A stretch of DNA of 53,515 bases. Origin: Prevotella sp. Its GTDB lineage: Bacteria; Bacteroidota; Bacteroidia; Bacteroidales; Bacteroidaceae. Both the position numbers and the translations under genes were made by a program. The stretch's first letter is position 1. Each line of letters begins with the position of its first letter. The notes beneath the pieces are model-generated. The model saw only the letters and a list, made by a program, of their open reading frames with translations. It did not search any database and was not told where the DNA came from. Positions 36,323-52,898 of this stretch are shown here, piece by piece. The stretch is taken from NCBI GenBank assembly GCA_017412705.1, contig JAFPWS010000076.1:1-53515 (forward strand). Reading direction: 5' to 3'.

Positions 36323-36391
36323 GATATCTTATTTATTGTTAATTATTTGCCAATAGTCAAACCATTATTCTTTCAACTTGAAAATTTTATG

Positions 36392-36399: not shown

Positions 36400-36428
36400 G
36401 AGCACAATTCCGAAATTGCATAATCTTT

Positions 36429-37595: not shown

Positions 37596-37956
37596 CTAAA
37601 TCACCTCCCCCGCATACTCCATTTTCTTACCAAGTACAGTACATAATATCATTTGTATATCCTTTACAAATGAATAATGCCTATAATAATAGCAGTTAAG
37701 CCTTACCTTATCAGGATAGATGACATTGTCATTATACCACACCGCCACCTCCTGATCCGACATTTTGTCAATCTGCTCCTGCGGAAGACGTCTGCCCTCA
37801 GACATCAGCCTTCTGACATCTGCCAGCATCTCATCCTCCAAACGATACTTCAAAGTTGCCGGTCCAGTGATGCCGGGGCGCAACTTCAGCACATCCCAAA
37901 GTCCTGACAGCTCATCCAGCTTCCAGTGCCGCAATTTCGCACCAATGGGCAGACCC
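37596..37956 (-). pseudogene. Truncated second copy of the initiating sugar-phosphate transferase
   Basis: Reads IGAKLRHWKLDEL through KMEYAGEVI, closely matching the C-terminal half of the intact gene at 39437-40111. It lacks the membrane-anchored N-terminus and has lost 84 bases (28 codons) including the conserved catalytic-site loop. In the intact copy these bases lie between two 11-base direct repeats, CAGCACATCCC at 39728 and 39812; the pseudogene keeps one (37887-37897). Two blocks are identical to the intact gene (37684-37745 = 39525-39586, 62 bases; 37750-37829 = 39591-39670, 80 bases), while the flanks differ, which suggests gene conversion. Not expected to be functional. Confidence 0.88.
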
Positions 37957-37993
37957 TATATGGGCTGAATATATGATATTGATACTTATCCAT
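37943..37993 (-). pseudogene. Possible 5' fragment of a galactokinase-like gene
   Basis: From ATG 37993 the minus strand reads MDKYQYHIFSPYRVCPL. SPYRVCP followed by a Gly-Ala pair is what I expect near the start of some galactokinase-family (GHMP) proteins, but here the frame runs straight into the sugar-transferase remnant. The match is short and from memory, so this is a weak call. Confidence 0.3.
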
Positions 37994-38071: not shown

Positions 38072-39397
38072 TCATCCGATGATGTTTTCCTTGATGGTGT
38101 CAACGATGTATTTTACATCCTCGTCGCTCACGTATGGGCCGGCAGGCAAGCACATACCCACCTTGAAAATAGCCTCTGATACACCATTGACGTATGCTGG
38201 AGCATCCTGATAAACCGGCTGCTTGTGCATGGGTTTCCAGACAGGACGAGCCTCAATGCCAGCGGCATCCAATGCTACACGCAACGCCTCTACATTATCA
38301 TTCGGCTGACAGTCAGTAACTGCCGTTGATGCCGCATGGATAACACCCGCAGCCCCGCCAACTGCACCCTGCACAATCGTCTTATAGGCATTCTCCTGAC
38401 CTTTCACCTTCACGTTCTCGTCAATCGTGACGGTGCAAAGCCAATAGTTAGAGTCGTAGACGGAAGCCCCCTCTAAATCTCCCCCCTTAGGGGAGACTTT
38501 GGGCTGCGAGTGTACAGTTATACCTGGAACATCAGCCAAAAGCTCTTCGTACATCTTTTGCACATGCTTGTGATGCGCAATATGGTCATCAACAATGGTC
38601 ATCTGACCACGACCGATACCTGCACAGATGTTACTCATGCGGTAGTTATACCCTATCTTCTCATGCTGATAGTAAGGATAGCTTTCACGATACTGCGTGG
38701 CATACATCATAATCTCGCGCCAAGACTCTTCATCAGGAGTAATCAATGCACCTCCTCCAGAAGTGGTTATCATCTTATTGCCATTGAAGCTCAACACACC
38801 ATACTTACCGAACGTACCCAACATCTGTCCGTTATACTTCGAGCCAAAGCCCTCAGCCGCATCCTCAATCACGGGAATCTCATACTTGTTGGCTATCTCC
38901 ATAATGCGGTCAATCCTATACGGCATACCGTAGAGGGCTACAGGTATGATAGCCGCAGGCTTCCTGCCCGTCTTGGCAATTCTATCCTTGATGGCTTCTT
39001 CCAGCAGTTCCGGGTCCATGTTCCACGTATCCTTCTCTGAGTCAACGAACACTGGTGCAGCCCCAAGATACGTGATAGGATGGCTCGACGCACAGAACGT
39101 AAAGCTCTGAACCAGCACCTCATCCCCAGGGCCAACGCCACAAGCTATCAGTGCCAGATGCACCGCCGCCGTACCACTCGACAACGCTACGACTCTCTTA
39201 TTTAGGGACTCACATCTTACATCATCCTTCAGCCCTCTTACATCCGAAACGAACGTTTCGAGATCCTTCTCAAACCCATTCACATTCGGGCCCAACGGCA
39301 CCACCCAGTTTGTATCAAACGCCTCTTTGATGTACTTCTGTTCCAGTCCGGCCTCGCTCATATGAGCCAGACACAGGTAAATTCTCTTTCTTTCCAT
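38072..39397 (-). CDS. DegT/DnrJ/EryC1/StrS-family aminotransferase
   Basis: 441 residues, PLP-dependent aminotransferase of nucleotide-sugar synthesis, usually acting on a keto-sugar to give an amino sugar. ALSSGTAAVHLALIA near residue 72 binds the cofactor phosphate, VIEDAAEGFGSKYNG near 176 contains the Asp, and SFNGNKMITTSGGG near 204 the Schiff-base Lys. Start ATG 39397 (MERKRIYLCLAHMSEAGLEQ). It follows the sugar-phosphate transferase by 39 bases. Odd: residues about 298-311 (KVSPKGGDLEG) are encoded by a palindromic GC-rich repeat. Confidence 0.9.
   Translation of the reverse strand: MERKRIYLCLAHMSEAGLEQKYIKEAFDTNWVVPLGPNVNGFEKDLETFVSDVRGLKDDVRCESLNKRVVALSSGTAAVHLALIACGVGPGDEVLVQSFTFCASSHPITYLGAAPVFVDSEKDTWNMDPELLEEAIKDRIAKTGRKPAAIIPVALYGMPYRIDRIMEIANKYEIPVIEDAAEGFGSKYNGQMLGTFGKYGVLSFNGNKMITTSGGGALITPDEESWREIMMYATQYRESYPYYQHEKIGYNYRMSNICAGIGRGQMTIVDDHIAHHKHVQKMYEELLADVPGITVHSQPKVSPKGGDLEGASVYDSNYWLCTVTIDENVKVKGQENAYKTIVQGAVGGAAGVIHAASTAVTDCQPNDNVEALRVALDAAGIEARPVWKPMHKQPVYQDAPAYVNGVSEAIFKVGMCLPAGPYVSDEDVKYIVDTIKENIIG
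38467..38505. repeat. GC-rich palindromic element inside the aminotransferase gene
   Basis: Inverted repeat TCTCCCC (38478-38484), 5-base loop, GGGGAGA (38490-38496), flanked by further C- and G-rich bases. On the coding strand it reads KVSPKGGDLEG in frame within a surface region between VPGITVHSQ and YDSNYWLCTV. Confidence 0.7.
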
Positions 39398-39436
39398 AAT
39401 ATATTGCTTTCTGTTTCTTCAGTGACTTCTGTGTGA

Positions 39437-40111
39437 CTATATCACCTCCCCCGCATACTCCATCTTCTTACCAAGCACAGTACAGAATATCATCTGAATG
39501 TCCTTAATGAAGGAATAATGCTTGTAATAATAGCAGTTAAGCCTTACCTTATCAGGATAGATGACATTGTCATTATACCACACCGCTAGTTCCTGATCCG
39601 ACATTTTGTCAATCTGCTCCTGCGGAAGACGTCTGCCCTCAGACATCAGCCTTCTGACATCTGCCAGCATTTCGTCCTCAAGACGATATTTGAGAGTGGC
39701 AGGTCCAGTAATCCCCGGCCTCAACTTCAGCACATCCCTGTCCTCACCGACAAGTTTATCCGCATATCCAGGTACGTCAGGCCTTGGCCCCACAAAACTC
39801 ATATTGCCTATCAGCACATCCCACAGCCCGGGCAGTTCATCCAACTTCCAATGCCTCAGCGTAGCCCCAAACGGAGTAATCCTACTATCCCCTGCCACAC
39901 TGACCGTCGAGCCATTATGCTTCACTGTCATTGTCCGGAACTTATGGCAGTCAAACAACCGTCCATCTTTCCCTACCCTCTTCTGCACAAAGAAGGCAGG
40001 CCCTCCCGGCATCTTAATCTTAACAAGGATGGCCACAATCATCAGTACAGGCCATAAGAACAAAAGCCCAATTAGTGATACTAACCGGTCAAATATCCAT
40101 TTTAGTAACAT
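39437..40111 (-). CDS. Undecaprenyl-phosphate sugar-phosphate transferase (initiating)
   Basis: 224 residues of the bacterial sugar transferase family PF02397. It starts polysaccharide assembly by moving a sugar-1-phosphate from a nucleotide sugar to undecaprenyl phosphate. One N-terminal membrane helix (KWIFDRLVSLIGLLFLWPVL), then FVQKRVGKDGRLFDCHKFRTM, LRHWKLDELPGLWDVL and SFVGPRPDVPGY. As often in Bacteroides polysaccharide loci it is near the distal end of the operon. A broken copy lies 1.5 kb downstream. It follows the NTP_transf_5 gene by 13 bases. Confidence 0.93.
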   Translation of the reverse strand: MLLKWIFDRLVSLIGLLFLWPVLMIVAILVKIKMPGGPAFFVQKRVGKDGRLFDCHKFRTMTVKHNGSTVSVAGDSRITPFGATLRHWKLDELPGLWDVLIGNMSFVGPRPDVPGYADKLVGEDRDVLKLRPGITGPATLKYRLEDEMLADVRRLMSEGRRLPQEQIDKMSDQELAVWYNDNVIYPDKVRLNCYYYKHYSFIKDIQMIFCTVLGKKMEYAGEVI

Positions 40112-40124
40112 AGTTATATTATTA

Positions 40125-41258
40125 TCACCCTTCCCCTCTCACTGCACTCCGTATCCCATAGAACATTATCCTTGGGAAGAACCGCAGTGAGTCCATCGGG
40201 AATATCCTTGCATGATTAACCAAGTCGCCTATACGCCTGAACATAGAGAACGCCTTGCGGACAACAAACTGGCGACTTAACCATGAATCATGCTCCATTA
40301 ACCATGAGCCACGGTTGTGGCCCATATTGCCGGACATCATTATAAACTCGATGATACTGTTGGCCTTCTTGTTCCAACGAGGCGACTCATCATACATTGG
40401 CATGGCATCCTTAGGCATTCCCAACCATTCGACAGCCAGGGCAGCAAAAGCCTTCCACTCAGAAACCAAGCCCATCTGCTTGATTCGTGATTCCAAAGCT
40501 TTCTTGTCAAGTTTCTCCCTATACGTCCATAGCAATCTGCACCAATCACATATCTGCCTCAACCCCACACCCTCTATAAAGAAATGTTGTAAGATATGGG
40601 TAAAAACATAAAATGCATCGTTCTCCACGCTAAGCAGAAACACCTGAGTACCATTGTTATTCCAAGACCTCACATTCCCGCCGGCGAAAGTGTCATTTCG
40701 AATATCGTCTAATACGCGGTTTATCCTTTGGGACAGTCCAACACGCAAACTGCCATGAAGTTCAACTACAAAGTCCTCGATGGTCATTCCAAGATGTTTT
40801 TCCTCTACATACTCGTCTTCTACCGACGACGCTAATGGGACTACAACTTCCTTCGCCTTGTTATAGTTATCCTCACTGAGAAACAAGTCAACATCCCCGC
40901 TTGCTCGCCACAATGGCTTTTCATAGCACTGAGCTATACCCTGCCCTTTTACCAATACCGCATGAACATCCTTTTTGCGAAGCTTTTCCAACAGCACAGC
41001 AATGAACCTATTCATAGCCAGATTCTCCTGCTCTATCTGTAATGTGCTCCCGATAAACTGAAGCAATTCATCTTGCGGCACTTTCACATCCACAACATGC
41101 TCCAATCCGGCTGTCACCAGCCCCACTACCGCCTGTTCCTCAGCAAGCCGCATTATCTCCTCGTAATTCACCTTACCACATGGCGAAAGTCGGACTTCTT
41201 TATTCCAAAGCCCGGCTCTCAGCAAAGCAAAGAAAGCACTTGTGTTAATATCTTTCAC
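40125..41258 (-). CDS. Nucleotidyltransferase-fold protein (NTP_transf_5 type)
   Basis: 377 residues. The middle carries a Pol-beta-like nucleotidyltransferase motif (LVKGQGIAQCYEKPLWRASGDVDLFL, GD-x-D near residue 115) in a pattern typical of the PF14907 family found inside polysaccharide loci. Substrate unknown. Odd: residues about 316-328 (GSWLMEHDSWLS) are encoded by a 21-base word repeat with TTAACCATGA twice. It follows a GT2 gene by 3 bases. Confidence 0.78.
   Translation of the reverse strand: MKDINTSAFFALLRAGLWNKEVRLSPCGKVNYEEIMRLAEEQAVVGLVTAGLEHVVDVKVPQDELLQFIGSTLQIEQENLAMNRFIAVLLEKLRKKDVHAVLVKGQGIAQCYEKPLWRASGDVDLFLSEDNYNKAKEVVVPLASSVEDEYVEEKHLGMTIEDFVVELHGSLRVGLSQRINRVLDDIRNDTFAGGNVRSWNNNGTQVFLLSVENDAFYVFTHILQHFFIEGVGLRQICDWCRLLWTYREKLDKKALESRIKQMGLVSEWKAFAALAVEWLGMPKDAMPMYDESPRWNKKANSIIEFIMMSGNMGHNRGSWLMEHDSWLSRQFVVRKAFSMFRRIGDLVNHARIFPMDSLRFFPRIMFYGIRSAVRGEG
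40277..40307. repeat. Word repeat inside the NTP_transf_5 gene
   Basis: TTAACCATGA at 40277-40286 and 40298-40307, spaced by 21 bases, with ATCATG between. In frame it gives SWLMEHDSWL, reminiscent of the junk peptides made by CCATGAACCATGAA-type repeats in this group. Confidence 0.6.
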
Positions 41259-41261
41259 GCT

Positions 41262-42086
41262 TTACTTCCTTGCAAACGTCCTGAATACCCATCCACGAAC
41301 ACTATTAGGTAGCAGCAGCTGAATGATAAAGCGCTCAACGTAGTTGATAATATACTCCTTACGTGTTATCATCCCCTTCTCCAGCATCAGTCTCTTGATG
41401 CCAATCTCACTATTAAAGTATTTTTTGCCTCCACGACGCCCATATTGGTCCAGCCCTGAACGCATATTCACCAGCACATCGGGTAAATTGGCAAACACGC
41501 ATCGCTGTTCCATCATCCTCACCCACATATAGTAGTCCTCATTCCAGAACCAGTCCTGATAGTTACCTGCCTTTAGCACCGATTCCTTTTTGAACATCAC
41601 CGTAGGATGATTCAAAGCGCAGCGGCTCCTCATATACTTATATATTTCTTCGTTTACACAAGGCACTTCACGCTTACCTACAATATTGTTAGGTGAATCA
41701 ATGAACTCCGTTATCTGCCCTCCTACTATGTCGCACTCGGGATGTGCTTCAAGATAAGCCAATTGTTTCTCGAACCTATCAGGCAAACAAATGTCATCGC
41801 TATCCATACGAGCGCAAATGTCGTACTTAGCATTCTCAACATCCAACTTCAATGCATTGCCCAACCCGCCATTCTTTTCAAGGCGAATCACATGTATAAT
41901 ATTTGGGTACTTTCCCTCATATTCACGCAGCAAGTTTGATAATTCTTCTGGTACAGGCCCATCTTGCACCATAATTATCTCCGATGGTTTCACACTCTGA
42001 TGCACCAGCATACTATCAAGCGCGACACTTACATATGAAGGATTGTCGTTCTTATATACTGAAGTACAGACACTAAATTTCTCCAT
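41262..42086 (-). CDS. Family 2 glycosyltransferase
   Basis: 274 residues with the GT2/GT-A fold: SVCTSVYKNDNPSYVSVALDSML near the start, VQDGP, DICARMDSDDICLPDRF (the DxD metal motif near residue 97), VGGQITEF and SRCALNHPTVMFKK. This resembles AmsE-like enzymes of exopolysaccharide loci. Acceptor and sugar unknown. It is the only classical glycosyltransferase in the visible part of the locus. Starts 2 bases after a LicD gene. Confidence 0.9.
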   Translation of the reverse strand: MEKFSVCTSVYKNDNPSYVSVALDSMLVHQSVKPSEIIMVQDGPVPEELSNLLREYEGKYPNIIHVIRLEKNGGLGNALKLDVENAKYDICARMDSDDICLPDRFEKQLAYLEAHPECDIVGGQITEFIDSPNNIVGKREVPCVNEEIYKYMRSRCALNHPTVMFKKESVLKAGNYQDWFWNEDYYMWVRMMEQRCVFANLPDVLVNMRSGLDQYGRRGGKKYFNSEIGIKRLMLEKGMITRKEYIINYVERFIIQLLLPNSVRGWVFRTFARK

Positions 42087-42088
42087 TG

Positions 42089-42970
42089 TTATTCCTTGTT
42101 CTTCAATTTCTGACGCACTTCGTCCAGCGTCATACTATTATCCATATTGAGGTAATAATGATAATGGTGTGAAACCCTCTTCTCGATAGGTGGGTACTTC
42201 ATATAGTCACCATATACATTTGTTAGATATTCATGATACCCTGATGGCACCTTTATGGTGAAATCTGAGAAAGGCATATCTACATAACTCTCAAACCATT
42301 GCTTATCAAAATACTCTCGACCCCAATAATCACCATAATAAGACACTAAATGACACCCTTTCTCTTCTGCAGCCTCATTTTCAAATGTGATGATCTTATC
42401 CCTATAATAACCCGACAAGCAAGCGGGGAAAAATAAAGAAGCAATTTCCTTAATTACCATTTTCTTGTCACCATCCTTTAGGTGTTTTAGGATCTTTTTC
42501 GGGCTAAAACATATTTGGGTTAGCTGATATTTTCTAAAAAGATTACGAAAATAACGATATTTTTTTAAGAATTCCGACTTAGTTATTGATGTCGCATCAA
42601 GAGGGAATACATCAACATATACACCGCATATAAAAGGTATTGATTCAATTTCCCACAAGGTGGTATCTTTACTATAAATTTTAGCAAATGTTGCATATGA
42701 AGAGCTATTCTTTGCCGCTATTAACTTAAATCCTTCATCCTCCATATCTGGTGCAAGACTTATAAGTTTCTCATAATCCTTTCTTGGCATAAACACATCA
42801 ATGTCATCATCCCATGGAATGATATCATGATGTCTCACAGCTCCTAACATTGTACCTGTAGCGCTACAATAAGTTAGATCATTTTCCTCACAAAATGAAA
42901 TAAAATATTTTAAGATACGATAAAGATGAGACTTATACTTTTCCTCATCAACATATTGCTCTTTCATCAT
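42089..42970 (-). CDS. LicD-family phospho-headgroup transferase (1)
   Basis: 293 residues, starting MMKEQYVDEEKYKSHLYRIL. The LicD signature GTMLGAVRHHDIIPWDDDIDVFMPRKDYEKL occupies about residues 38-70; the paired Asp residues (WDDDIDV) bind metal in this nucleotidyltransferase fold. LicD enzymes are known to transfer phosphocholine or similar headgroups from CDP to cell-surface sugars. Here they sit beside phosphonate genes, so the donor is probably a CMP-phosphonate (inference). AT-rich compared with the left half of the window. Confidence 0.88.
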   Translation of the reverse strand: MMKEQYVDEEKYKSHLYRILKYFISFCEENDLTYCSATGTMLGAVRHHDIIPWDDDIDVFMPRKDYEKLISLAPDMEDEGFKLIAAKNSSSYATFAKIYSKDTTLWEIESIPFICGVYVDVFPLDATSITKSEFLKKYRYFRNLFRKYQLTQICFSPKKILKHLKDGDKKMVIKEIASLFFPACLSGYYRDKIITFENEAAEEKGCHLVSYYGDYWGREYFDKQWFESYVDMPFSDFTIKVPSGYHEYLTNVYGDYMKYPPIEKRVSHHYHYYLNMDNSMTLDEVRQKLKNKE

Positions 42971-43015
42971 CTATTTTTCATTAATTGTATACTAATAGCC
43001 CTATAACAAACTGTG

Positions 43016-43831
43016 TCATTTCCAAAAATACTTGTTATCAGAATGCCCTCTCACTTGTTTAGAAAGTGGTGGTAATTGCATATAATCTCCATAAATTGCT
43101 CTTAAATAAACATCATACTCAGCAATAACCATTGTTTCTATGCCGCCAAATTCTACTCTATTATACCGTTCAAAAATATCCTTTCTATGTGTATCTTTTA
43201 TTCCGTAAGGACTTCCGATATTACAAACAGTATCACAGGAACCATATTCAGGTAACTGCATTATCATTGAATTGTATCGCTTTATCTCCATATCGATATT
43301 CTTCCAACCATAAAGACAACGTTTACCAATAATTTTCAAAACCCTTTTAAAATCTAATTCTCTAGAAATAGGTACTCTTGAACCACATATATTATAACAT
43401 ATACTGCTCTGTATCCTTAGTGCCTTTCCACCATCTTCCGGCATGCTATCAATGGGAAATATATCTATCCACAATCCAGTTTCTGCATCTGTCCATTGAT
43501 AATACTTTCTGACTCTAGTTCGTTTCATATCACATATACGAGCTATACTAAAAAAAGAATTACCTAATTCAGGAGCAAAAAATTCCAATTCATTCTCTTG
43601 AGCGATCTGACTATTATTGAACAACTCAACTAGGCGATTATAATTTGGTCGAGTCATTATAATATCTATGTCATCATCCCAAGGGATACAATCTTTATGG
43701 CGGATTGCACCAATTAGAGCTCCATAACCTAAAGAATAAGATATCTTATTCTTAATACAGAAACTATCTATAACCTTTAGTATTCTCTTACTTTCCTCTT
43801 GTATATCTTCAAGTGTAAGTTCCTTAACCAT
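43016..43831 (-). CDS. LicD-family phospho-headgroup transferase (2)
   Basis: 271 residues from ATG 43831 (MVKELTLEDIQEESKRIL), preferred because it aligns with the usual LicD start; a TTG at 43852 would add seven residues. Signature GYGALIGAIRHKDCIPWDDDIDIIMTRPNYNRL about residues 34-66, a DIFPIDSMP motif near 125, and the closing YLRAIYGDYMQLPP that LicD proteins share. It is distinct from the other two LicD copies in sequence. Follows the alcohol dehydrogenase by 10 bases. Confidence 0.87.
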   Translation of the reverse strand: MVKELTLEDIQEESKRILKVIDSFCIKNKISYSLGYGALIGAIRHKDCIPWDDDIDIIMTRPNYNRLVELFNNSQIAQENELEFFAPELGNSFFSIARICDMKRTRVRKYYQWTDAETGLWIDIFPIDSMPEDGGKALRIQSSICYNICGSRVPISRELDFKRVLKIIGKRCLYGWKNIDMEIKRYNSMIMQLPEYGSCDTVCNIGSPYGIKDTHRKDIFERYNRVEFGGIETMVIAEYDVYLRAIYGDYMQLPPLSKQVRGHSDNKYFWK

Positions 43832-43841
43832 TATCGATTTG

Positions 43842-44954
43842 TTATTGGACAATTCTATTATATAAAGCTGAAATAGTAATACAATCTAGTTCGATAGGAT
43901 TATTTTTCATCCTCACAGGATTAACTGATGTTGAAAGCACATCTAGTTCCTCTTCCCTTTTCAACGCAACAGGATTCTTTAACTCCATTTCAAACATCAT
44001 CTGACGGAATTCATAAATGGCTTTAATAGGAGAACCACAACCCATAGCTTTTGCAATCAAATCAAATATTTCAGAAAGATATACTCTTCCTCTTTTATCA
44101 ATGCACTTATCCATATGACCTTCCATATACTCCCATATTTCTGGTAGGCACACAGCTACTGCATGACCATGAGGCAACTTATACAAAGATGTTATCTTAT
44201 AACTAAAAGCGTGAGCGGCTGTTGTCTGTGTAATATTTATTGCTCTTCCACCATAATTGGCACCCAACATAATTTTAGCTGCAGCCTCATCATCATTCTC
44301 GAAGATATACTTTCGCCAATTAGCCATGATTAGCTCAATGGTCTTGCGGCTATACTCGTAGCTCTCTTCAGTAGAGTTGACACTCCACCAAGACTCTATG
44401 CCTTGGCAAAGAGCATCCATCATGGTACACTTCTTCTGATACAATGGGAGTGTCTTTAGAACTGATGGTTCCATAATAGCATAATCAGGCAAAACGCCAT
44501 CATTGGTGACAGTTTGTTTGGCACCCTCATAATACATCACAGCATTATGAGTGGACTCACTTCCTGTACCTGCCGTTGTTGGAATGGCAATGAAGGGTAT
44601 TTTTGAACCATCACACTCCACTCTTGTACTTACCAATGGTGGAATAAGCGAAGCATTGCCTTCTTTTGCCAGAACAGCCAACTTGATACACTTAGCTACA
44701 TCGATGGCACTACCGCCACCGACAGCCAAAATGCTATCACACTTGGTTATCTGGAAAAGGTCAATACCTTTACATACTTGCTCGTATAGAGGGTTAGGAG
44801 TGAAGTCCGAGAAGAGAACATGGGGCTTGCCCATGTTCTCTATGTCAGTCTTAATATTTAGGAAAGGAAATGAAGAGTCGCAAACAACGAATACCTTTGT
44901 TGCGCCTTCTAAAGCCTCACCTAAATGAGAAATACCATTATAAATTACTTGCAT
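43842..44954 (-). CDS. Iron-type alcohol dehydrogenase, likely phosphonoacetaldehyde reductase
   Basis: 370 residues of the Fe-ADH family: GGGSAID near residue 79, PTTAGTGSES near 125, and metal-binding region. In the family two Asp/His pairs hold the metal; here D180 and H248 and H262 are present (14-residue spacing of the last two kept) but the second position is Gln184 in DALCQGIES where FucO has His. Directly after phosphonopyruvate decarboxylase (10-base overlap) and without an AepZ-type aminotransferase, it most probably reduces phosphonoacetaldehyde to 2-hydroxyethylphosphonate, as PhpC does in phosphinothricin synthesis. The Gln could be a subfamily trait. Confidence 0.8.
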   Translation of the reverse strand: MQVIYNGISHLGEALEGATKVFVVCDSSFPFLNIKTDIENMGKPHVLFSDFTPNPLYEQVCKGIDLFQITKCDSILAVGGGSAIDVAKCIKLAVLAKEGNASLIPPLVSTRVECDGSKIPFIAIPTTAGTGSESTHNAVMYYEGAKQTVTNDGVLPDYAIMEPSVLKTLPLYQKKCTMMDALCQGIESWWSVNSTEESYEYSRKTIELIMANWRKYIFENDDEAAAKIMLGANYGGRAINITQTTAAHAFSYKITSLYKLPHGHAVAVCLPEIWEYMEGHMDKCIDKRGRVYLSEIFDLIAKAMGCGSPIKAIYEFRQMMFEMELKNPVALKREEELDVLSTSVNPVRMKNNPIELDCITISALYNRIVQ

Positions 44955-46072
44955 AAGAATTCCATTAAAGCTTCTTTGTTCTGAATTGGAGTGGTAGTAG
45001 GTCTGCCAAGATCCTTGCGATTGCCTTTCTTGACTTTCACCTCTAAGAAGATTGGCCCTTCTTGATTTTTAATCTTATCAAGAAGTTCCTTTAAATATTC
45101 TTTGGTCTCAACACTATAAATAGCCTTATATCCAACAGCCTTTGCTACAGCAGGCAGGTCAATTTTGAGGCCAACAGTTGGCTGACCACCTACTGAATCA
45201 TGGGCACCATTGTTGAAAACCACATGAACATAGTTCTCCGGTTTTTTTTTGGCCACAATTGCCATACTGCCCATGTGCATAATGCTGGCACCATCGCCAT
45301 CAAAGCACCACACCTTTCTATCCTGCTTTGCTAAAGCAATACCAAGGGCAATCTGAGAGGCATGGCCCATAGAACCTACTGTCAGGAAGTCACGCTCATG
45401 GCCTTCGTTCATCGCTGTACGATACTCAAAGAGCTCACGGGAAATCATACCTGTAGTCGATACTATAGCATCTTTTTCGCCAAGGGCTGCAGCAACTGTC
45501 TGGATAGCCTCTTCACGACTCATTGTGAGGTCGTTCTTCTCAACATTCTGGAGCGTATAAGCATCGAAAGTATCCTTCTCAATAATGATTGCATAGCACT
45601 GCTTGGTGGCCTGCATAAAGGCAACAGCCTTCTTAATCTGGGCCTCTGCCTTATCTTCTTCTTTGCTCAGAACTGTATAATCAATGCCCATCACATTGAG
45701 CAAGCCAGTAGTAACCTTACCTTGCTTCACATGCTGTGGTTCATCATGCACTCCAGGTTTTCCTCGCCAGCCAATCACCAACAGAACTGGGATGTTATAT
45801 ACATCGGGATCTGTCAGAGAGGCGAGAGGATTAATGATATTACCCTCACCTGAGTTCTGCATATAGACTACAGGAATCTGGCTGGTTGCCAGATAATGAC
45901 CTGCTGCCAAACCCATTGCACCACCCTCGTTGGCAGCAATGATGTTATGTGCAGCATCAGCTTGATCTGTGATATAGGCACAAAGATTCTTTAGCAAAGA
46001 ATCAGGAACGCCAGCATAGAAATCAATGCCATAGCTGGCTAATGTATCATAGAAAAACTTAGGACTAATCAT
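44945..46072 (-). CDS. aepY: Phosphonopyruvate decarboxylase
   Basis: 375 residues, TPP-dependent. It decarboxylates phosphonopyruvate and so pulls the unfavourable PEP mutase step forward. Visible: YAGVPDSLLKNLCAYI at the N-terminus, ANEGGAMGLAAGHYLATSQIPVVYMQNSGEGN near residue 40 with the TPP-activating Glu, and the C-terminal TPP/Mg motif GDGASIMHMGSMAIV ... NNGAHDSVGG near residue 258. Its ATG shares one base with the stop of the upstream aepX-like gene (TAATG). Confidence 0.93.
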   Translation of the reverse strand: MISPKFFYDTLASYGIDFYAGVPDSLLKNLCAYITDQADAAHNIIAANEGGAMGLAAGHYLATSQIPVVYMQNSGEGNIINPLASLTDPDVYNIPVLLVIGWRGKPGVHDEPQHVKQGKVTTGLLNVMGIDYTVLSKEEDKAEAQIKKAVAFMQATKQCYAIIIEKDTFDAYTLQNVEKNDLTMSREEAIQTVAAALGEKDAIVSTTGMISRELFEYRTAMNEGHERDFLTVGSMGHASQIALGIALAKQDRKVWCFDGDGASIMHMGSMAIVAKKKPENYVHVVFNNGAHDSVGGQPTVGLKIDLPAVAKAVGYKAIYSVETKEYLKELLDKIKNQEGPIFLEVKVKKGNRKDLGRPTTTPIQNKEALMEFLCK

Positions 46073-48081
46073 TACTCTTCGGGAATTAAGGTGATAATTT
46101 CTTTAATTGACATACACTTGTCATCGCACTCCTTGGCACGATGGTTCTCCAAGATTGTACGAGCTGCATCCTGCATTGCAGGGAAGCCTGTACGAGTGAG
46201 CTGGTTGGCATAGATAACCACATTCACGCCACGTTCCTTGAACTCTGCCTCTGTAACAGTATTGAATGAGGTCGGTACTACCACAATAGGAGTTGTGCTA
46301 TTCTTCTCGCGGAACTTGGCCACAAACTCAAAGATTTCAGCAGGATCCTTCTTGCGGCTGTGAATCATAATGGCATCTGCACCAGCCTCACTGAATGCGA
46401 AAGCACGTTCCAATGCGTCTTCCATTCCCTGCTCCAGAATCAATGATTCAATACGGGCACAAATCATAAACTCCTTGGTCTTCTGTGCTTTCTTACCAGC
46501 ACGGATCTTCTCGCAGAAATCAGGAATAGCTGCTTGTGTCTGCTTGACCTCGGTTCCAAACAGGCTGTTCTTCTTCAAGCCAGTCTTGTCCTCAATGATG
46601 ACCATAGAAACGCCCATACGCTCCAGTGAACGGACAGTATAAACAAAGTGTTCAGTCAAACCACCTGTATCACCATCAAAGATAATGGGTTTGGTGGTCA
46701 CCTCCATAATGTCGTCAATGGTGCGGAAGCGGCTGGTCATATCCACCAACTCAATGTCAGGCTTGCCCTTAGCAGTGGAGTCGCAAAGTGAGCTTACCCA
46801 CATGGCATCAAACTGATAGGTCTTGCCATCCTGGAGTACCTTGGTGTTCTCCACAATCAAACCCGTGATACCGCTATGAGCCTCCATAGCCGTTACCAGT
46901 CCCTTCATGTTAATCAGCTTGCGCAAGCGTCCACGGCGGATGTCCGGCATACTGGCCTCGGAACGGTGGTTGGCATCAAGTTCCTTATACATTGGATTGT
47001 TGCTATAGGGATACTCAACCAGCTTGCCGCCATACTCAGCCAGCACTTCACATACCTCTTGGCGAATGGGTTTCTGGAAACCTTCACACCAGTCATTGCC
47101 GTGAACCACAAAGTCAGGACGAAGAGCCTCCAGATTCTCTTTATAAGAGAGCGTCTTTTGTTCAACCACACGCTCAACACCTGCCAGGTTCTCAAACAGG
47201 GCTTTGCGCTCTTCGTATGGAATCAGTGGGAAGCGTTTGAAACTGGAGATGGCCTCATCACTCAGTACGCCAATTATCAGGCGGCCAAGCCTTCTGGCCT
47301 TGTTAATAATGGCCATATGACCGCTGTGGATGTACTCTGTAGAGAAGCACATATATACTGTGCGCTCATTGATTTCTGCCACCTTTTTGCTAACCACTTC
47401 CAGGTCTTCGGGAGTGTCAATCTCTGCGCAGAGCATACTCTTCACATCGCAAGGATAAATCTTACACTGGTCAGAGACCTCGTTAAAGGCATTCTCTGCA
47501 TACACCTTTCTGTTATCGCTTTCGCAGAAATTCTCAATGTTCTGTAGCCATACCAGCCAGTCTTCTTTCTTAATCTTGTAGAGAGGCTGGGCGGTCATAG
47601 CATTGTCAAAGAACTCAATGCCTACCTTCTCAATGCGGCCATCCTTAATGACTGCCTTAAAGTCCTTCTCAGGCAGGGGCAGTGTGCTGCTAACAGCCAT
47701 GCAGCTGTTCTCGCTGTCGATCACAGCCTCCATCACACGGCTCTCAAACACCAAGTCACCATGCATCAAGATGATGTCATCATCCTTCAGTGCGTCTTTG
47801 GCGCAATAGATGCTGTAGATGTAGTTGGTCTTGTCGTAGAGCGGGTTGTTGACAAAGGTATACTTCAAAGGGAGGTGGAGCTTTTCACAATAGTCCACCA
47901 GAACCTTGTCGTAGTAGCCTGTGGTCATAACGACCTCTTCCACTCCGAAGCTCACAAGCTGTCTCAACTGTCGGCTGAGAATTGTGTTTTTGTACGAGAT
48001 CTCCGTCATGCACTTAGGATGTTCACTCGTAATCACACCCATTCTGTGGCCAAGGCCACTGTTAAGAATTAATGCTTTCAT
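46072..48081 (-). CDS. aepX: Nucleotidyltransferase - cytidylyltransferase - PEP mutase fusion
   Basis: 669 residues with three modules. 1-235: NTP-transferase (LNSGLGHRMGVITSEHPKCM, then DDDIILMHGDLVFE), like the enzymes that make CMP-phosphonates or CDP-choline. 236-380: cytidylyltransferase-like fold with H252-S-G-H255 (HxGH). 388-669: PEP phosphomutase with the hallmark EDKx5NS motif at 497-506 (EDKTGLKKNS) and FDGDTGG near 470. PEP mutase makes the C-P bond of phosphonopyruvate from PEP. The fusion suggests that the same protein also activates the finished phosphonate with CTP (inference). Cytidylyltransferase-PEP mutase fusions are known; I do not know how common the three-module form is. 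Confidence 0.9.
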   Translation of the reverse strand: MKALILNSGLGHRMGVITSEHPKCMTEISYKNTILSRQLRQLVSFGVEEVVMTTGYYDKVLVDYCEKLHLPLKYTFVNNPLYDKTNYIYSIYCAKDALKDDDIILMHGDLVFESRVMEAVIDSENSCMAVSSTLPLPEKDFKAVIKDGRIEKVGIEFFDNAMTAQPLYKIKKEDWLVWLQNIENFCESDNRKVYAENAFNEVSDQCKIYPCDVKSMLCAEIDTPEDLEVVSKKVAEINERTVYMCFSTEYIHSGHMAIINKARRLGRLIIGVLSDEAISSFKRFPLIPYEERKALFENLAGVERVVEQKTLSYKENLEALRPDFVVHGNDWCEGFQKPIRQEVCEVLAEYGGKLVEYPYSNNPMYKELDANHRSEASMPDIRRGRLRKLINMKGLVTAMEAHSGITGLIVENTKVLQDGKTYQFDAMWVSSLCDSTAKGKPDIELVDMTSRFRTIDDIMEVTTKPIIFDGDTGGLTEHFVYTVRSLERMGVSMVIIEDKTGLKKNSLFGTEVKQTQAAIPDFCEKIRAGKKAQKTKEFMICARIESLILEQGMEDALERAFAFSEAGADAIMIHSRKKDPAEIFEFVAKFREKNSTTPIVVVPTSFNTVTEAEFKERGVNVVIYANQLTRTGFPAMQDAARTILENHRAKECDDKCMSIKEIITLIPEE

Positions 48082-48112
48082 CTTAATCTTAATTAAATTG
48101 AATATCTATTTA

Positions 48113-49015
48113 TCAATGCACGTAAAAATACCGTTCCCACTTGGAAACAGTTTGTAACCTTTCCCTAATTATATCATCGTATGCACGATTCAAATTTATT
48201 ATTGTTTCACCGTGTAACGACGCGTTTTTTACGGGTGTCATATAGTCACCATATTCCTCAGTTAATAAAGAGTGATAATCTTTGGGGCAGGGCAGCTCTA
48301 TATCGTCAAAGGGTAATAGTACCGTTTCTTTGAACCATTCTTTTCTATATTTTTTTATCTGAGCATACTTTTTATATTTTTCCGTGCGAGCATACAAACA
48401 AACATTTGCAACTATACCACTATTCTCTCTATCAACATCTACCAGTATGTTTCTCACTTTATTACGGATATTATTTTTACATATCGACACATACACATTA
48501 CAGAACAAATGCCAGGCCTTGCCAAAGAACCCTTTTGACGAGGCATAGCTCATCTGATAAGCATTGGCTTCTATTCTTAATAGAGTTCTAAGATACGAAT
48601 ACCTCTTCTCAAATGTCTCTGTTTCTTTTGGCATACCATCTAGACAAAAAATGTCTATCCATACACTTTGGTTAATTTTAGTATCTAACTTGAAATGTGG
48701 CATAATCATACTTGAACCATTATACCGTAACTTTGTTACATCAACACGGTCTATATCGAAGCTTATGTTCGTATCGACTGGCAGAGAAATCATCCTTTTT
48801 GCGATCATCTCTCTCAGCCTGTCAAAGTCTTTGCGCATCATAACAAAATCCATATCATCATCCCATGGGATAAATCCTTTATGGCGTACACAACCGAGCA
48901 AAGTGCCATAACCTGCCCATATGTGAAGTCCATGCTTCCTACATATGTCAAGAAGTACTATTGCCATTTGCTTTTGTAATTCTTGTAATCGCGGGAGGTA
49001 TTTTTCTGTGTTCAT
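48113..49015 (-). CDS. LicD-family phospho-headgroup transferase (3)
   Basis: 300 residues. Signature GYGTLLGCVRHKGFIPWDDDMDFVMMRKDFDRL at about residues 35-68 and a C-terminal LLTEEYGDYMTPV typical of LicD. It lies upstream of the phosphonate genes and downstream of the KAS III gene. The three LicD proteins are only moderately alike, which points to different acceptors or positions rather than recent duplication. Confidence 0.88.
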   Translation of the reverse strand: MNTEKYLPRLQELQKQMAIVLLDICRKHGLHIWAGYGTLLGCVRHKGFIPWDDDMDFVMMRKDFDRLREMIAKRMISLPVDTNISFDIDRVDVTKLRYNGSSMIMPHFKLDTKINQSVWIDIFCLDGMPKETETFEKRYSYLRTLLRIEANAYQMSYASSKGFFGKAWHLFCNVYVSICKNNIRNKVRNILVDVDRENSGIVANVCLYARTEKYKKYAQIKKYRKEWFKETVLLPFDDIELPCPKDYHSLLTEEYGDYMTPVKNASLHGETIINLNRAYDDIIRERLQTVSKWERYFYVH

Positions 49016-49030
49016 ATTTTCATCTATTGA

Positions 49031-50041
49031 TTAGTCTACATCTATTAATTTCAATAAGGTACCGCCAAAAGACAGTCCAACTCCAAAGCCCAAAAGCATA
49101 ACGATATCCCCAGCCTTAATAAAATGATTATCTAAACAATCCTTTAATCCAATAAAAACAGTTGACGAAACAGTATTGCCTGTTTTTTTCAAATTCACAT
49201 AATACTTTTCTTTCGGTATCATACATACTTTCCGGATAGTATTAAGCATAAATTTGTTAGCTTGGTGAAAAATGTAATAGTCTATAGCATCTTTCGCTGT
49301 TCTGTTCTTTTCCAATATATCTCCAATCATCTCAGGTACCACATCTAATGTAAAGTTAAAAATACCTCCACCATTCATATATAGATAGTCATCATACCAA
49401 ATATGGCCTTCATCATCTTCTTCATATTTACCAGTTGCATCTTTCTGTCTGGCGGCTCCTGTCTTTACTATCAGATTATTCGCACCACTACCATCTGTTC
49501 CAAGTGAGAACTCACCTATTTCAGCAAAGCCATCCGTAGAAATCAAGCAAGCTGCAGCTCCATCGCCAAAAATAGAACGATTGCTCTTATCTGAAGGATG
49601 CAGATATTTATTATAGGTTTCTGCTGTCAGTAAGAGTACATTCTTAGCTATACCAGCTGCTATCAAGCCTTTAGCCATAGCCATGCCATATATACAGCCT
49701 GAGCATCCGAGATTATAATCAAATGCTCCGGCTGAAGTTGATATTCCCAACCTATCTTGGAGTAAACAAGCTGTTGAAGGCAAGAAATAGTCAGGACTTT
49801 GGGTGCAAAGCATTAAGAAGTCAATTGTCTTGGGATCAAATTGATACTCCTCAAACAACTTACGTGCAGCTTTCTCTGCCATATCTCCAGCTGTTTCATT
49901 TTCAGCTGCCAAATGGCGAGAATCCACACCGACTTTCTGCGCAACCTTATCGACGCTCCACTCAGGGAACTCTTTAACAAGTTCCTCATTAGTTACTACC
50001 TTTTCAGGAAGATAGTATGATATTGCCTTTATAAATGCCAT
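49031..50041 (-). CDS. 3-oxoacyl-ACP synthase III (FabH-like)
   Basis: 336 residues from ATG 50041 (MAFIKAISYYLPEKVVTN); the TTG at 50047 is less likely. Catalytic triad positions are intact: C113 in NLGCSGCIYG, H259 in FHQANKFML and N289 in GNTVSSTVF. Condenses an acyl-CoA with malonyl-ACP. With the adjacent SDR and ACP it forms a small chain-starting set inside the polysaccharide locus, so it probably makes a short acyl group for transfer to the sugar, not membrane lipid (inference). Confidence 0.88.
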   Translation of the reverse strand: MAFIKAISYYLPEKVVTNEELVKEFPEWSVDKVAQKVGVDSRHLAAENETAGDMAEKAARKLFEEYQFDPKTIDFLMLCTQSPDYFLPSTACLLQDRLGISTSAGAFDYNLGCSGCIYGMAMAKGLIAAGIAKNVLLLTAETYNKYLHPSDKSNRSIFGDGAAACLISTDGFAEIGEFSLGTDGSGANNLIVKTGAARQKDATGKYEEDDEGHIWYDDYLYMNGGGIFNFTLDVVPEMIGDILEKNRTAKDAIDYYIFHQANKFMLNTIRKVCMIPKEKYYVNLKKTGNTVSSTVFIGLKDCLDNHFIKAGDIVMLLGFGVGLSFGGTLLKLIDVD

Positions 50042-50053
50042 ATTCAACTCAAT

Positions 50054-50794
50054 TTACCCCCCCCCAGATATCTTAACGTTGCTACCTGTCATCCAGGTAC
50101 TCGCATCAGATAACATATAGACTGCAAGATTTGCAATATCATCAGGCTGCCCATATCTCTTTAAGGGGTACTTTTGTTCGTCTTCTTTTAACTGTTCTTC
50201 ATCAGTTCCATCTGCCAAAATGAGATCTGTCCACACCATAGCAGGACTGATGCAATTTACTCTTATCTTTCTTGGCGCTAATTCCAAAGCCAAACAATTG
50301 GCGTATGAAATGATAGCGCCTTTTGATGCACTATAAACAGAATTGCCAAAACTTGGAGACCATGAAGCAATTGATGCTACAAATACTATCGAAGCGCCCT
50401 TGTTGATTTTCTTTTGGCGCAACAATTCTGCCTGTAACATCACTGGCGCTTTAAAGTTTACGTCCATCACTTGATTAACATCTTCTAAATGCAAGTCTTT
50501 ACAAGGTTTACGTTGCCCCATGCCTGCACATTGAACAATTCCATCTAATTTAGGAAGATTGCCAACCATTTCAATAAGAGATGTAGACTCTGTCAAATCT
50601 CCAATGGCAACAATATGGCCTTCGCCCTCCATCTGCGAGAGCGTTTCTTGCAGACGTTCCTTATTTCGACCATTGATGATTACAGTTGCTCCCATTTTGG
50701 AACAAGTGACTGCAATGCCTCGTCCTATACCAGACGAAGCACCAGTCACCAAAATTATTTTTCCTTCAAGTGAAAAAGGATTATCTCCAGTCAT
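50054..50794 (-). CDS. SDR-family oxidoreductase (FabG-like)
   Basis: 246 residues. Nucleotide-binding TGASSGIGRGIAV near residue 16, CAGMGQ near 91, catalytic Ser near residue 142 (FVASIASWS) with YSASKGA (Tyr-x-x-x-Lys) near 155. Between ACP (ATG/stop share one base) and KAS III, a 3-oxoacyl-ACP reductase fits best; a role on a keto-sugar is the alternative. Confidence 0.85.
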   Translation of the reverse strand: MTGDNPFSLEGKIILVTGASSGIGRGIAVTCSKMGATVIINGRNKERLQETLSQMEGEGHIVAIGDLTESTSLIEMVGNLPKLDGIVQCAGMGQRKPCKDLHLEDVNQVMDVNFKAPVMLQAELLRQKKINKGASIVFVASIASWSPSFGNSVYSASKGAIISYANCLALELAPRKIRVNCISPAMVWTDLILADGTDEEQLKEDEQKYPLKRYGQPDDIANLAVYMLSDASTWMTGSNVKISGGG

Positions 50795-51030
50795 TACTTA
50801 GAAGCTATGAGGTTAAACAAATCCTCAACAGTATCACATTCTCTTATTTCTTTACCTGTAATGGTCTTACCATATTGCGTTTTAGCCATAGCAATAACGC
50901 TCATTCCTGTTAAAGATGACCACTCATCAAGTTCATGAAATTCAGTTGACGCAGTGATTTCAGATGCATCCGTGTCGTCAAACTGTTCTGCAAAATTTTT
51001 AATAAATTCGTTTAATTCCATAATTTTCAT
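50794..51030 (-). CDS. Acyl carrier protein
   Basis: 78 residues from ATG 51030; ATG 51021 (MELNEFIKNFAEQF) would give 75 and fits related proteins equally well. Four-helix pattern with the phosphopantetheine site near residue 39 in DEWSSLTGMSVIAMA, where most ACPs have DSL; the acidic residue before the Ser is replaced by Ser. One base overlaps the SDR start. A second, locus-specific ACP beside its own KAS and reductase. Confidence 0.85.
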   Translation of the reverse strand: MKIMELNEFIKNFAEQFDDTDASEITASTEFHELDEWSSLTGMSVIAMAKTQYGKTITGKEIRECDTVEDLFNLIASK

Positions 51031-51038
51031 TTTTATTA

Positions 51039-51728
51039 TTAATAATCTAAATCATCAAAAACAGGCTTATACCCTTCATCAATTGTTGTTGCAGGATTAC
51101 CTACAATAATACAATTTGGCGAGGTGAACTTGTTTTTTATTACACTACCAGAACTTACAATTGTATAGCTTGCAAGTTTTACCCCTTTTGACACTATTAC
51201 ATTGTGCCCTATCCAAACATTGTCTCCAATAGTAATTGGAACAGCCGTTTTAAGAGACTTGTTTCTTATTGTATCAACTATAGGATGAAAATCAGTATCA
51301 TAAAATTGACAATCCCAACTTACTCTTGCCTTATAATCAAATATTATACTTTTATCACAAACTATCTTGCATCCACAATTAAAAGCAGTTTGCTCCCCAA
51401 TTTCCAATCGTCCTCCCTTGTTCGTCTGAATTAACATTCCATGTCCCATTCTACAATTACCTTTAAAAATAATTGTGCCCCTATTTCTCCAAATAATTCT
51501 TTCTGGAGGTCTAATAGGTGTTCTCTGCTTTCCAATCCTTATCATACCTTTTCTTATTGGGCCTTCTATCAAAACATCTCCTTCGTTAGATAGAATCATT
51601 GGTTTGGAATAAATATAAAAAGGAAATTTGATTGCCTGTTTAAACGGTAAAACTCTAAAATTGAAAAATATGCTATATAAAATCAACTTTATGTTTTCCA
51701 TCTTTAGATATTTTGTCATTATTTTCAT
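51039..51728 (-). CDS. Hexapeptide-repeat acyltransferase
   Basis: 229 residues. N-terminal about 90 residues of unassigned beta/loop sequence lead to a left-handed beta-helix made of hexapeptide turns (IGDNVWIGHNVIVSKGVKLASYTIVSSGSVI, then PNCIIVGNPA), the WbbJ/WcaF-type acetyltransferase fold; the His in WIGHN is the usual active-site residue. It probably acylates a sugar. Immediately upstream of the ACP, so it may use the acyl-ACP made by the KAS/SDR pair (inference). Confidence 0.85.
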   Translation of the reverse strand: MKIMTKYLKMENIKLILYSIFFNFRVLPFKQAIKFPFYIYSKPMILSNEGDVLIEGPIRKGMIRIGKQRTPIRPPERIIWRNRGTIIFKGNCRMGHGMLIQTNKGGRLEIGEQTAFNCGCKIVCDKSIIFDYKARVSWDCQFYDTDFHPIVDTIRNKSLKTAVPITIGDNVWIGHNVIVSKGVKLASYTIVSSGSVIKNKFTSPNCIIVGNPATTIDEGYKPVFDDLDY

Positions 51729-51774
51729 GTCATTGTTTCTAATGCGTCAAACAAAAATTGCACTCTATATGAAA

Positions 51775-52755
51775 TCAATTGGGCATTTCTTTCCCAAAAC
51801 AAATATCTATAGTTCCATATTTATGCTCATATGTTGAATACGAACGTATTCTATAAGCCTCATCATCGATATCAAGTATTCCAACATATCCTAAGCCACC
51901 ATCAGTATAATGCTGATAGTTCACTTCTATCATGTGCACCTGTTTTCCTTCTACATTATATTCAGAATGTACATTAATGTGGAGTGGCGTCAGGCAATGC
52001 CCACAAACCACCAACTTTACATTTGGATTATGGTAGATAATTTTATCGAAAATTTCCCGACTGTCATTTTTGTAATCCCCTCCCATTTTATACTTTTTGT
52101 GGGAAGAACCCTTATTTACTATTTCAGTATTTGCAGCATCAAACATTTCTCCATTCTGATCCAGAAATACATGCAGTAAAATAATATAAGGAGTTGTGGG
52201 GTCGGATTTGATTATGTCATTAGCCCATTCCAAAGTTTCATTTCTTGTACAAAATTCCAAAACGAGAACCCCGTATTTCCGACCGACTAAGTTAATATAG
52301 CGCACATAGTTTTCCCATTGCGAATCCTCCATTCTCTTATCATAATGTGGCATCAGAATATTTGGGCAATTAGATTGTCTAATATCCGAGGTACCGTTTT
52401 TACCATAGTCATGGTTTCCCAAACAAAACACCATCTGGTCTTCAATGCTAAATTTGCTAAAGAATTGATTATATGCATTCTCGTATTGCCATACCGCATT
52501 ATTGTTTGTCAAATCTCCTACCTGCAGAATTGCATCATATCTATCTCTATTAGCATGATAATAGTCTGCAATCGCATTAAGATATCTGAATCTTTCCTCT
52601 AAATGAGTATAGTTCTGAATATCTGGCACTATCACTATGGATGATTTCGTTGATTCCTCCATTAACAACTTATTATCACCTTCTGAACATGCCCACACCA
52701 CAAATGGGAAAAAGAAAGCGAAAAGAAGAATTAGTTTTCGATAATTATAAATCAT
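51775..52755 (-). CDS. Lipoprotein metallophosphoesterase
   Basis: 326 residues with a lipoprotein signal ending VWAC (Cys about residue 23), then a calcineurin-like phosphoesterase: D-x-Q in VPDIQNY near residue 44, GDLTNNN near 80, GNHDYGK near 112, and VCGHC near 250 as the last metal His. Fold and motif order are those of the family. A surface lipoprotein phosphodiesterase or phosphatase at the head of a phosphonate locus could trim or turn over the headgroup (inference). The IS4 end lies about 15 bases upstream of its ATG. Confidence 0.85.
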   Translation of the reverse strand: MIYNYRKLILLFAFFFPFVVWACSEGDNKLLMEESTKSSIVIVPDIQNYTHLEERFRYLNAIADYYHANRDRYDAILQVGDLTNNNAVWQYENAYNQFFSKFSIEDQMVFCLGNHDYGKNGTSDIRQSNCPNILMPHYDKRMEDSQWENYVRYINLVGRKYGVLVLEFCTRNETLEWANDIIKSDPTTPYIILLHVFLDQNGEMFDAANTEIVNKGSSHKKYKMGGDYKNDSREIFDKIIYHNPNVKLVVCGHCLTPLHINVHSEYNVEGKQVHMIEVNYQHYTDGGLGYVGILDIDDEAYRIRSYSTYEHKYGTIDICFGKEMPN

Positions 52756-52840: not shown

Positions 52841-52872
52841 TTGACGGTGACGATTTGAATTGACTACCTTTG
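52841..52872 (+). promoter_or_regulatory. Promoter of the IS4-type transposase
   Basis: TTGA at 52841-52844, 20-base spacer, TACCTTTG at 52865-52872, 26 bases before the transposase ATG. Good match to the Bacteroides consensus. Confidence 0.65.
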
Positions 52873-52898
52873 TAATTCAAATGCAAATCAGTCATTCG

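Follow-up and report, generated by a model that had tools for sequence, protein, structure and literature searches.

In Bacteroides fragilis, the 2-aminoethylphosphonate (AEP) of the capsule is produced by a route consisting of AepX, AepY and AepZ, and the chemistry of phosphoenolpyruvate (PEP) mutases and phosphonopyruvate decarboxylases (Ppd) is established for both families. Attachment of 2-hydroxyethylphosphonate (HEP) is reportedly found on the glycans of Glycomyces and Stackebrandtia. The present work concerns a phosphonate operon on a contig of a Prevotella sp. (JAFPWS010000076.1), which coincides exactly with the stretch analysed here (53515 bases, hereafter the window) and belongs to a genome assembly that is 86% complete. 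The operon encodes a PEP mutase, a Ppd and, as third enzyme, a metal-dependent alcohol dehydrogenase (ADH), and we consider it probable from these genes that it makes HEP and attaches HEP to a surface polysaccharide.

The AEP capsule of B. fragilis is named in PMC6697681, where PntC-type enzymes are expected to activate a variety of phosphonates; the PntC enzymes were assayed on AEP and phosphocholine, HEP not being among the substrates in sections 7 to 10. According to the same source, Fom1 makes CMP-HEP, the form of HEP activated with cytidine monophosphate (CMP), and 42 triple fusions have been counted among 1485 PEP mutases. HEP-type clusters with cell-surface genes are already in print (PMC9381506). 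Among the matches listed in the open-licence literature, judged by title and abstract opening, no paper ties a nucleotidyltransferase subtype to HEP and none reports HEP on a glycan of gut Bacteroidota.

An alcohol dehydrogenase as third enzyme

An earlier note on this DNA had placed the PEP mutase, Ppd and ADH in overlapping frames together with three LicD genes, and profiles, motifs and frame positions bear this out (Table 1). The pathway frames are intact on the minus strand, with overlaps of 1, 10 and 11 bases from the mutase gene to the second LicD gene. EDKxxxxxNS is found in the mutase product as EDKTGLKKNS at residue 497, and PWDDDxD, which we take to be the LicD motif, is present in 3/3 LicD proteins of the window. 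What the note had overlooked is that the mutase gene encodes three fused domains (a triple fusion): two nucleotidyltransferase domains precede that of the mutase. In the route we propose, the mutase domain would convert PEP to phosphonopyruvate and Ppd would convert this to phosphonoacetaldehyde, both enzymes being assigned to their families by profile; the ADH would then reduce phosphonoacetaldehyde to HEP, and one or both of the fused nucleotidyltransferase domains would activate it to CMP-HEP. The Fom1-like domain is a candidate for this step because of its biochemical precedent on HEP, and the PntC-like domain because of genomic and residue evidence. Finally, at least one of the three LicD proteins would, judging by their family, transfer the HEP-phosphonyl group to a repeat-unit sugar.

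The claim that an ADH stands in place of an aminotransferase holds for the locus and for the source assembly. No transaminase of the source genome exceeds the TIGR03301 cut-off of 360.8 (two weak matches, the best of 41.9 bits), none was found there with a same-family transaminase as protein query, and no AepZ-type aminotransferase was found beyond the window in the rest of the assembly (86% complete). The genome has a single PEP mutase, and among the 18 further mutase genomes of the order, only two gave TIGR03301 matches as good as E 1e-40.

Relatives were gathered in four samples keyed on the PEP mutase and not on the ADH, with neighbours searched within 6 kb. Sample A comprised 393 genomes of the source's order (Bacteroidales, as we infer), 19 of them with a PEP mutase, window included. 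Sample B comprised 395 genomes of the source's phylum, of which 24 matched and nine passed the cut-off, eight of these being new (the 15 below cut-off were left out). Sample C comprised 391 genomes of the class of an Oscillospiraceae record, G782 (presumably Clostridia), with 33 mutase places in 32 genomes, and sample D comprised 301 genomes of the source's family, 50 of them with 51 mutase places (window included), 50 of which were fetched. The expected outcome for sample D was fixed before its loci were fetched. ADH was the third enzyme in 16/19 loci of sample A, where it adjoins the mutase (window included; transaminase in two, one of them on another contig, and one locus unresolved), in 2/8 new loci of sample B (transaminase in 6/8), in 16/33 of sample C (transaminase 8/33, neither 9/33) and in 13/50 of sample D (transaminase 21/50, neither 16/50). 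A HEP-type third enzyme is common among relatives, and because 16/19 mutase genomes of the order share it, the adjacency of ADH and mutase is not due to chance. Within the window's own family (sample D), the AEP type outnumbers the ADH type. The contrast drawn in the earlier note with the third gene of B. fragilis is real, but it is not special to this locus: ADH is the commonest third enzyme in the order-level sample, and with 16/19 loci sharing it we rejected the notion that the window's arrangement is unique.

A scan of genome contigs keyed on the ADH (14 aligned ADHs as query, best 80 loci) revealed a PEP mutase in the flanks of 18/80 loci, counted on all frames, and 12 of these 18 fall among the 13 loci at E 5e-56 or better. 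The taxa include Bacteroidales, Lentisphaeria, Lachnospiraceae and Oscillospiraceae, and ruminant or horse gut appears in several record titles. A search of 395 phylum genomes keyed on the ADH, which gave four genomes at E 1e-30, was left out of the counts.

The ADH has the fold and the metal ligands (Asp180, Gln184, His248, His262) expected of a phosphonoacetaldehyde reductase, and its gene lies next to the PEP mutase and Ppd genes both here and in relatives, as expected for the PhpC/FomC type. The earlier description as 'iron-type' stands as the name of a family and not as a statement about iron: the ligands include Gln184, and the sulfoacetaldehyde reductase BkTauF, which has the same atypical Gln ligand, regained most activity with zinc (PMC6616044). 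BkTauF shares with the ADH its fold and its substrate-side Thr257 (Thr244 in the ADH); it differs in overall identity (about 23%), in acting on a sulfonate aldehyde, and at Phe265 and Phe252, the former being Tyr252 in the ADH, as in some BkTauF homologues. In a fold search with an AlphaFold model of the ADH (mean predicted local distance difference test score 90.9), BkTauF (6jko) ranked second, at a template modelling score of 0.86; the search was rejected for lack of discrimination, many metal-dependent ADHs scoring alike. A PEP mutase-Ppd-ADH locus of Streptomyces (L076) has an ADH that is 29% identical to its best query.

Nucleotidyltransferase subtype and third enzyme

Residues 1-235 of the mutase protein match PF12804 at 37.4 bits (cut-off 27) and, weakly in both cases, LicC (1jyk, E 3.6e-7) and PntC (6pd1, E 1e-5, 28.4 bits). 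The PntC consensus Arg and PK lysine are kept as Arg13 and Lys23, whereas the window has His for the T/S of GXG(T/S)R. Two residues of Tde-PntC, Glu104 and Glu196, face the amine of AEP in the solved complex (PMC6697681); in the phmmer alignment, His107 of the window protein stands at the place of Glu104. We refer to the window-type domain as NTa and to the PntC-like type as NTp. His occupies this place in 34/34 NTa domains (21/21 from 20 loci of samples A and C together with L057, then 13/13 further) and Glu in 42/45 NTp domains (15/18, then 27/27), the three exceptions (L042, L136, L137) having Tyr or Phe in domains that lie behind the mutase. His is likewise found in six triple fusions aligned from the ADH-keyed scan; L052 among them is the same locus as L164 under another label. 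Since a Glu near the place of Glu196 is found in both types, only one of the two amine contacts differs.

Residues 241-361 match the Fom1 cytidylyltransferase (5x3d) at 136 bits and E 1.1e-38, with HxGH and the KR loop kept. Within sample D this Fom1-like domain has HxGH in 13/13 ADH loci and the window and HxGL in 21/21 same-family transaminase loci, as if it were used only where HEP is made; this 13-to-21 split in the window's family may be one event. As a general marker of HEP the domain was rejected, being present on the mutase in HEP-type and most AEP-type loci alike.

The NT subtype sorts with the third enzyme. Across samples A to D (window included), NTa adjoins ADH in 30/33 PEP-mutase loci; the remaining 3/33 show neither ADH nor transaminase, two of them (L141, L217) at contig ends, and no transaminase is assigned in any of the 33 (in L138 by gene order). 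Samples A to C contributed 20 of the NTa loci, 18 with ADH plus L141 (contig end) and L140 (no ADH within 6 kb), and no NTp locus of these samples has ADH as third enzyme. In sample D the outcome was as predicted: the 13 triple fusions comprise 12 with ADH, none with transaminase and one (L217) cut off at a contig end, and the 28 NTp loci comprise 21 with transaminase, none with ADH and seven with neither. Subtype and third enzyme agree in 34/34 tree rows for which both traits could be called, three of which (window, L041, L042) also served as queries. The L156 mutase falls in a clade that otherwise holds transaminase loci and undetermined ones, yet the locus combines ADH with NTa; L041, seemingly the reverse case in the first mutase tree, groups with same-family transaminase loci in the wider tree.

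Fusions follow the same division. NTa is fused to ADH in L057 (569 aa), L169 (561 aa; BLAST only) and L168, and NTp is fused to transaminase in L041 and L136 (the latter by BLAST only), mirroring the former. The simplest reading of these fusions is that each nucleotidyltransferase acts on the product of its partner enzyme, and a HEP or AEP head group in relatives would be marked by nucleotidyltransferase subtype together with third enzyme. At L168 (2268-5861) a single 1197-aa frame joins nucleotidyltransferase, ADH and a family 2 glycosyltransferase.

Other arrangements occur among the fetched loci. In L138 (7562-16669) a HEP-type and an AEP-type cluster are neighbours that share neither mutase nor third enzyme nor nucleotidyltransferase subtype, partners of the two mutases being assigned by gene order. 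L198 (6341-9591), L199 and L208 have a mutase, a Ppd and a PntC-type gene but lack a transaminase within 6 kb; in L198 and L208 these genes precede one that is presumably of the polyprenyl-synthase-like family. HEP-type genes without the extra nucleotidyltransferase are found in L026 (8923-16736), L027-L031, L033, L036 and L059, where the next gene is CDP (cytidine diphosphate)-glycerol glycerophosphotransferase-like (PF04464 in L026; BLAST relatives elsewhere) and a large membrane protein is also encoded (60KD_IMP domain in L026; BLAST relative in L059); HEP could be polymerised there in the manner of a teichoic acid. In L216 (7736-14892), counted as NTp on a weak 65-bit match, a PEP mutase of the triple-fusion clade precedes a gene fusing radical SAM, SPASM and cytidylyltransferase parts, then Ppd, DegT, a metallo-beta-lactamase fold and ATP-grasp genes, which makes this a different phosphonate route; L215 (BLAST only) has a mutase of the same clade.

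Alternative end products and functions

Several observations weigh against HEP as the product. The assignment derives from genes, and the ADH is a predicted phosphonoacetaldehyde reductase. Its score on TIGR03405, the model for phosphonate Fe-ADHs (PsrA), is 135.8 bits, far below the cut-off of 423.7, and by alignment Ile239 is mismatched to Phe252 of BkTauF, a substrate-side residue. The mutase protein also carries two activating domains. HxGH is kept in 12/13 transaminase loci with a Fom1-like domain in samples A to C, outside the window's family, and for this reason it is no general marker of HEP; the lysine of the Fom1 loop, informative in 1/3 independent pairs, follows ancestry. The mutase tree offers only two independent pairs on starred branches, both in agreement (2/2; sign test p 0.5), so that significance is out of reach, and the associations of ADH with NTa are partly inheritance. 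Furthermore, the triple fusion L140 lacks an ADH within 6 kb on a contig that continues beyond, and at L058, an ADH locus, a free nucleotidyltransferase of neither type carries Glu.

Two further observations of this kind also bear on whether the end product is AEP, made by a transaminase beyond the known assembly while the ADH does something else. In G1461, a triple-fusion genome with a HEP-type locus, a transaminase relative (35% identity) lies 80 kb away, and in L138, where both systems are adjacent, the window-type mutase has a transaminase 2.7 kb away, which was assigned to the second mutase by gene order. Completeness of the assembly, moreover, is 86%, and the contig breaks off upstream of the operon. 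We nevertheless hold AEP to be quite unlikely: neither profile nor protein query revealed a transaminase in the source assembly, none is assigned in any of the 33 NTa loci, and the two systems of L138 keep separate mutases, third enzymes and nucleotidyltransferases. Phosphonopyruvate, reduced to phosphonolactate, or another aldehyde in place of phosphonoacetaldehyde, is scarcely credible as the substrate of the ADH. Such a substrate would suit the loci that have no Ppd within 6 kb (L153, L156, L164) or in their fetched flanks (L052, L054, L065); however, the genomes of L164 (= L052) and L065 encode Ppd elsewhere, L153 and L054 are on short contigs (yet a search of the L054 genome found no Ppd), and the window and the remaining ADH loci of samples A to D have Ppd within 6 kb.

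A HEP that is only an intermediate, changed further before or after attachment into methylphosphonate, hydroxymethylphosphonate or a methylated or acylated form, strikes us as unlikely. MpnS and HepD need oxygen, which counts against such a change, and no dioxygenase was seen among the scanned operon genes, although no dedicated search of the genome for MpnS or HepD was made. In its favour, routes to methylphosphonate and to antibiotics are known to pass through HEP (PMC8931226, PMC9381506, PMC8976061), and the same operon encodes a ketosynthase, a ketoreductase, an acyl-carrier-like protein and an acyltransferase. It is also conceivable, if very improbable, that a true HEP-type locus is no longer expressed, or is incomplete, in this strain; a transposase-like frame and the contig end lie directly upstream and a decayed sugar transferase copy lies at 37596-37960, but the pathway frames are intact and overlapping. 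We retain production of HEP as the preferred reading. The HEP route set out in the earlier note agrees with each part put to the test (no AEP transaminase, DegT type, nucleotidyltransferase subtype tracking ADH), HEP itself being what we infer from these parts.

The surrounding locus and known systems

In reading order, the operon comprises acyltransferase, acyl-carrier-like protein, short-chain dehydrogenase, synthase III, LicD 1, mutase, Ppd, ADH, LicD 2, LicD 3, glycosyltransferase, NTP_transf_5 protein, sugar-phosphate transferase and DegT. The earlier naming of the DegT enzyme as a sugar aminotransferase stands insofar as it is closest to the LegC type, yet it falls short of the TIGR04181 cut-off. 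Directly upstream of the operon is a frame (52860-53378) that we take to be transposase-like, and the contig ends at 53515; a repeated element may be the cause of the assembly break. The decayed partial copy of the sugar transferase (39437-40111) is near-identical over much of the latter's last part, and it adjoins a gene at 36378-37592 that is presumably an AAA/DUF4143-like ATPase.

Table 1 Features of the phosphonate operon and its surroundings (positions in the window)
Feature	Position	Strand	Evidence
PEP mutase triple fusion, 669 aa	46072..48081	-	Pfam PF12804, PF01467, PF13714 over cut-off; TIGR02320 406.9 bits, cut-off 319.55
Nucleotidyltransferase domain, window type, residues 1-235	47377..48081	-	Arg13, Lys23, His107, Asp109, Asp222
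Fom1-like cytidylyltransferase domain, residues 241-361	46999..47361	-	HSGH intact at residue 252
PEP mutase domain, residues 386-669	46075..46926	-	Profile
Ppd, 375 aa	44945..46072	-	TIGR03297 517.5 bits, cut-off 312.5
ADH, predicted phosphonoacetaldehyde reductase, 370 aa	43842..44954	-	PF00465, PF25137
LicD-family transferase 1	48113..49015	-	PF04991 138.7 bits (cut-off 22.6); PWDDDMD
LicD-family transferase 2	43016..43852	-	PF04991 135.7 bits (cut-off 22.6); PWDDDID
LicD-family transferase 3	42089..42970	-	PF04991 142.4 bits (cut-off 22.6); PWDDDID
Glycosyltransferase, EpsE-like	41262..42086	-	Best NCBIfam match EpsE 78.6 bits, below cut-off 450
NTP_transf_5 family protein	40125..41258	-	PF14907 117.6 bits
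Initiating sugar-phosphate transferase, exopolysaccharide type, 224 aa	39437..40111	-	TIGR03025 178.6 bits, below cut-off 295.55
DegT sugar aminotransferase, LegC-like, 441 aa	38072..39397	-	PF01041 293.8 bits; TIGR04181 317.9 bits, below cut-off 420
Beta-ketoacyl-acyl carrier protein synthase III	49031..50047	-	NF006829 (PRK09352) 265.3 bits, cut-off 249
Short-chain dehydrogenase/ketoreductase	50054..50794	-	PF13561 165.4 bits
Small acyl-carrier-like protein, 78 aa	50794..51030	-	By sequence reading only
Hexapeptide-repeat acyltransferase	51039..51728	-	PF00132
Metallophosphoesterase gene	51775-52755		PF00149; inside the span of the earlier note

In mutase trees the window pairs with L037, from another family, and in a wider quick tree also with L204, inside a mixed group of triple fusions from the same family and from the class of G782. 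Between the window and L037, identity is 97% for the mutase domains as against 77% for Ppd and 70% for ADH, a disparity that suggests exchange between lineages. A viral origin was rejected, the one scan of viral contigs having given one pattern match and no relative. Two phage-collection records from human faecal samples, MT837901.1 and MT836947.1, encode mutases that share 55% and 61% identity with the window protein; both are short and unannotated and could be bacterial DNA.

It is tempting, if doubtful, to suppose that a surface-tailoring system specific to HEP is common to gut Bacteroidota and Clostridia, with a cytidylyltransferase subfamily of its own that has His for the AEP-contacting Glu and is either free-standing or fused to the mutase or the ADH. 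Since its hydroxyl stays free, HEP might serve there as an in-chain phosphonate-ester linker carrying further sugars and not only as a terminal cap. If the operon does make HEP as proposed, gut anaerobes would display HEP, and not only AEP, on their surfaces, and the head group could be read from three features of the genes: third enzyme, nucleotidyltransferase subtype and one residue. Surface charge would also be affected, HEP forming a negative diester without the positive amine of AEP. Furthermore, the choice between CMP-HEP and CMP-AEP would bear directly on the printed expectation of varied phosphonate activation (PMC6697681). WcfR and WcfS synthesise an amino sugar and transfer it in the formation of polysaccharide A, a capsule of B. 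fragilis (PMC13063421), and the window has a DegT and initiating transferase pair at the locus end that is alike by family and position only; should this likeness hold, one may speculate that the polymer pairs a positive amino sugar with a negative phosphonate.

The B. fragilis AEP route likewise has a PEP mutase and Ppd in a capsule-type locus, and the relatives of this kind that we fetched resemble the window in a cytidylyltransferase domain fused to the mutase and in neighbouring LicD genes. The window differs in having an ADH, not a transaminase, as third enzyme, an extra nucleotidyltransferase domain and His at the AEP-amine contact. With PntC (Tde1415, Ari1348; PMC6697681) the first domain shares the PF12804 family, the consensus Arg and Lys, and fusion to, or a place beside, the enzyme making the head group; it differs in its His for Glu104 and in that NTa is fused to mutase or ADH and not to transaminase, and the sequence match is weak (6pd1, 28.4 bits). 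Fom1 of fosfomycin synthesis is also a cytidylyltransferase fused to a PEP mutase, with HxGH and KR loop in common (5x3d, E 1.1e-38), whereas the window protein has an extra domain in front and is surrounded by polysaccharide and LicD genes in place of antibiotic genes.

The pepM-aepY-phpC clusters (PMC9381506) have the same three-step set to HEP, and lipopolysaccharide choline phosphotransferase and glycosyltransferase genes are named in their neighbourhoods. The taxa given there with all three genes include one clostridium (Cellulosilyticum) and no Bacteroidota, and section 12 of that source makes no mention of nucleotidyltransferase subtype or triple fusions. Taken together, the arrangement first noticed in this window is confirmed and its interpretation supported at gene level, and the system appears to be a variant of the HEP-type surface clusters already described.

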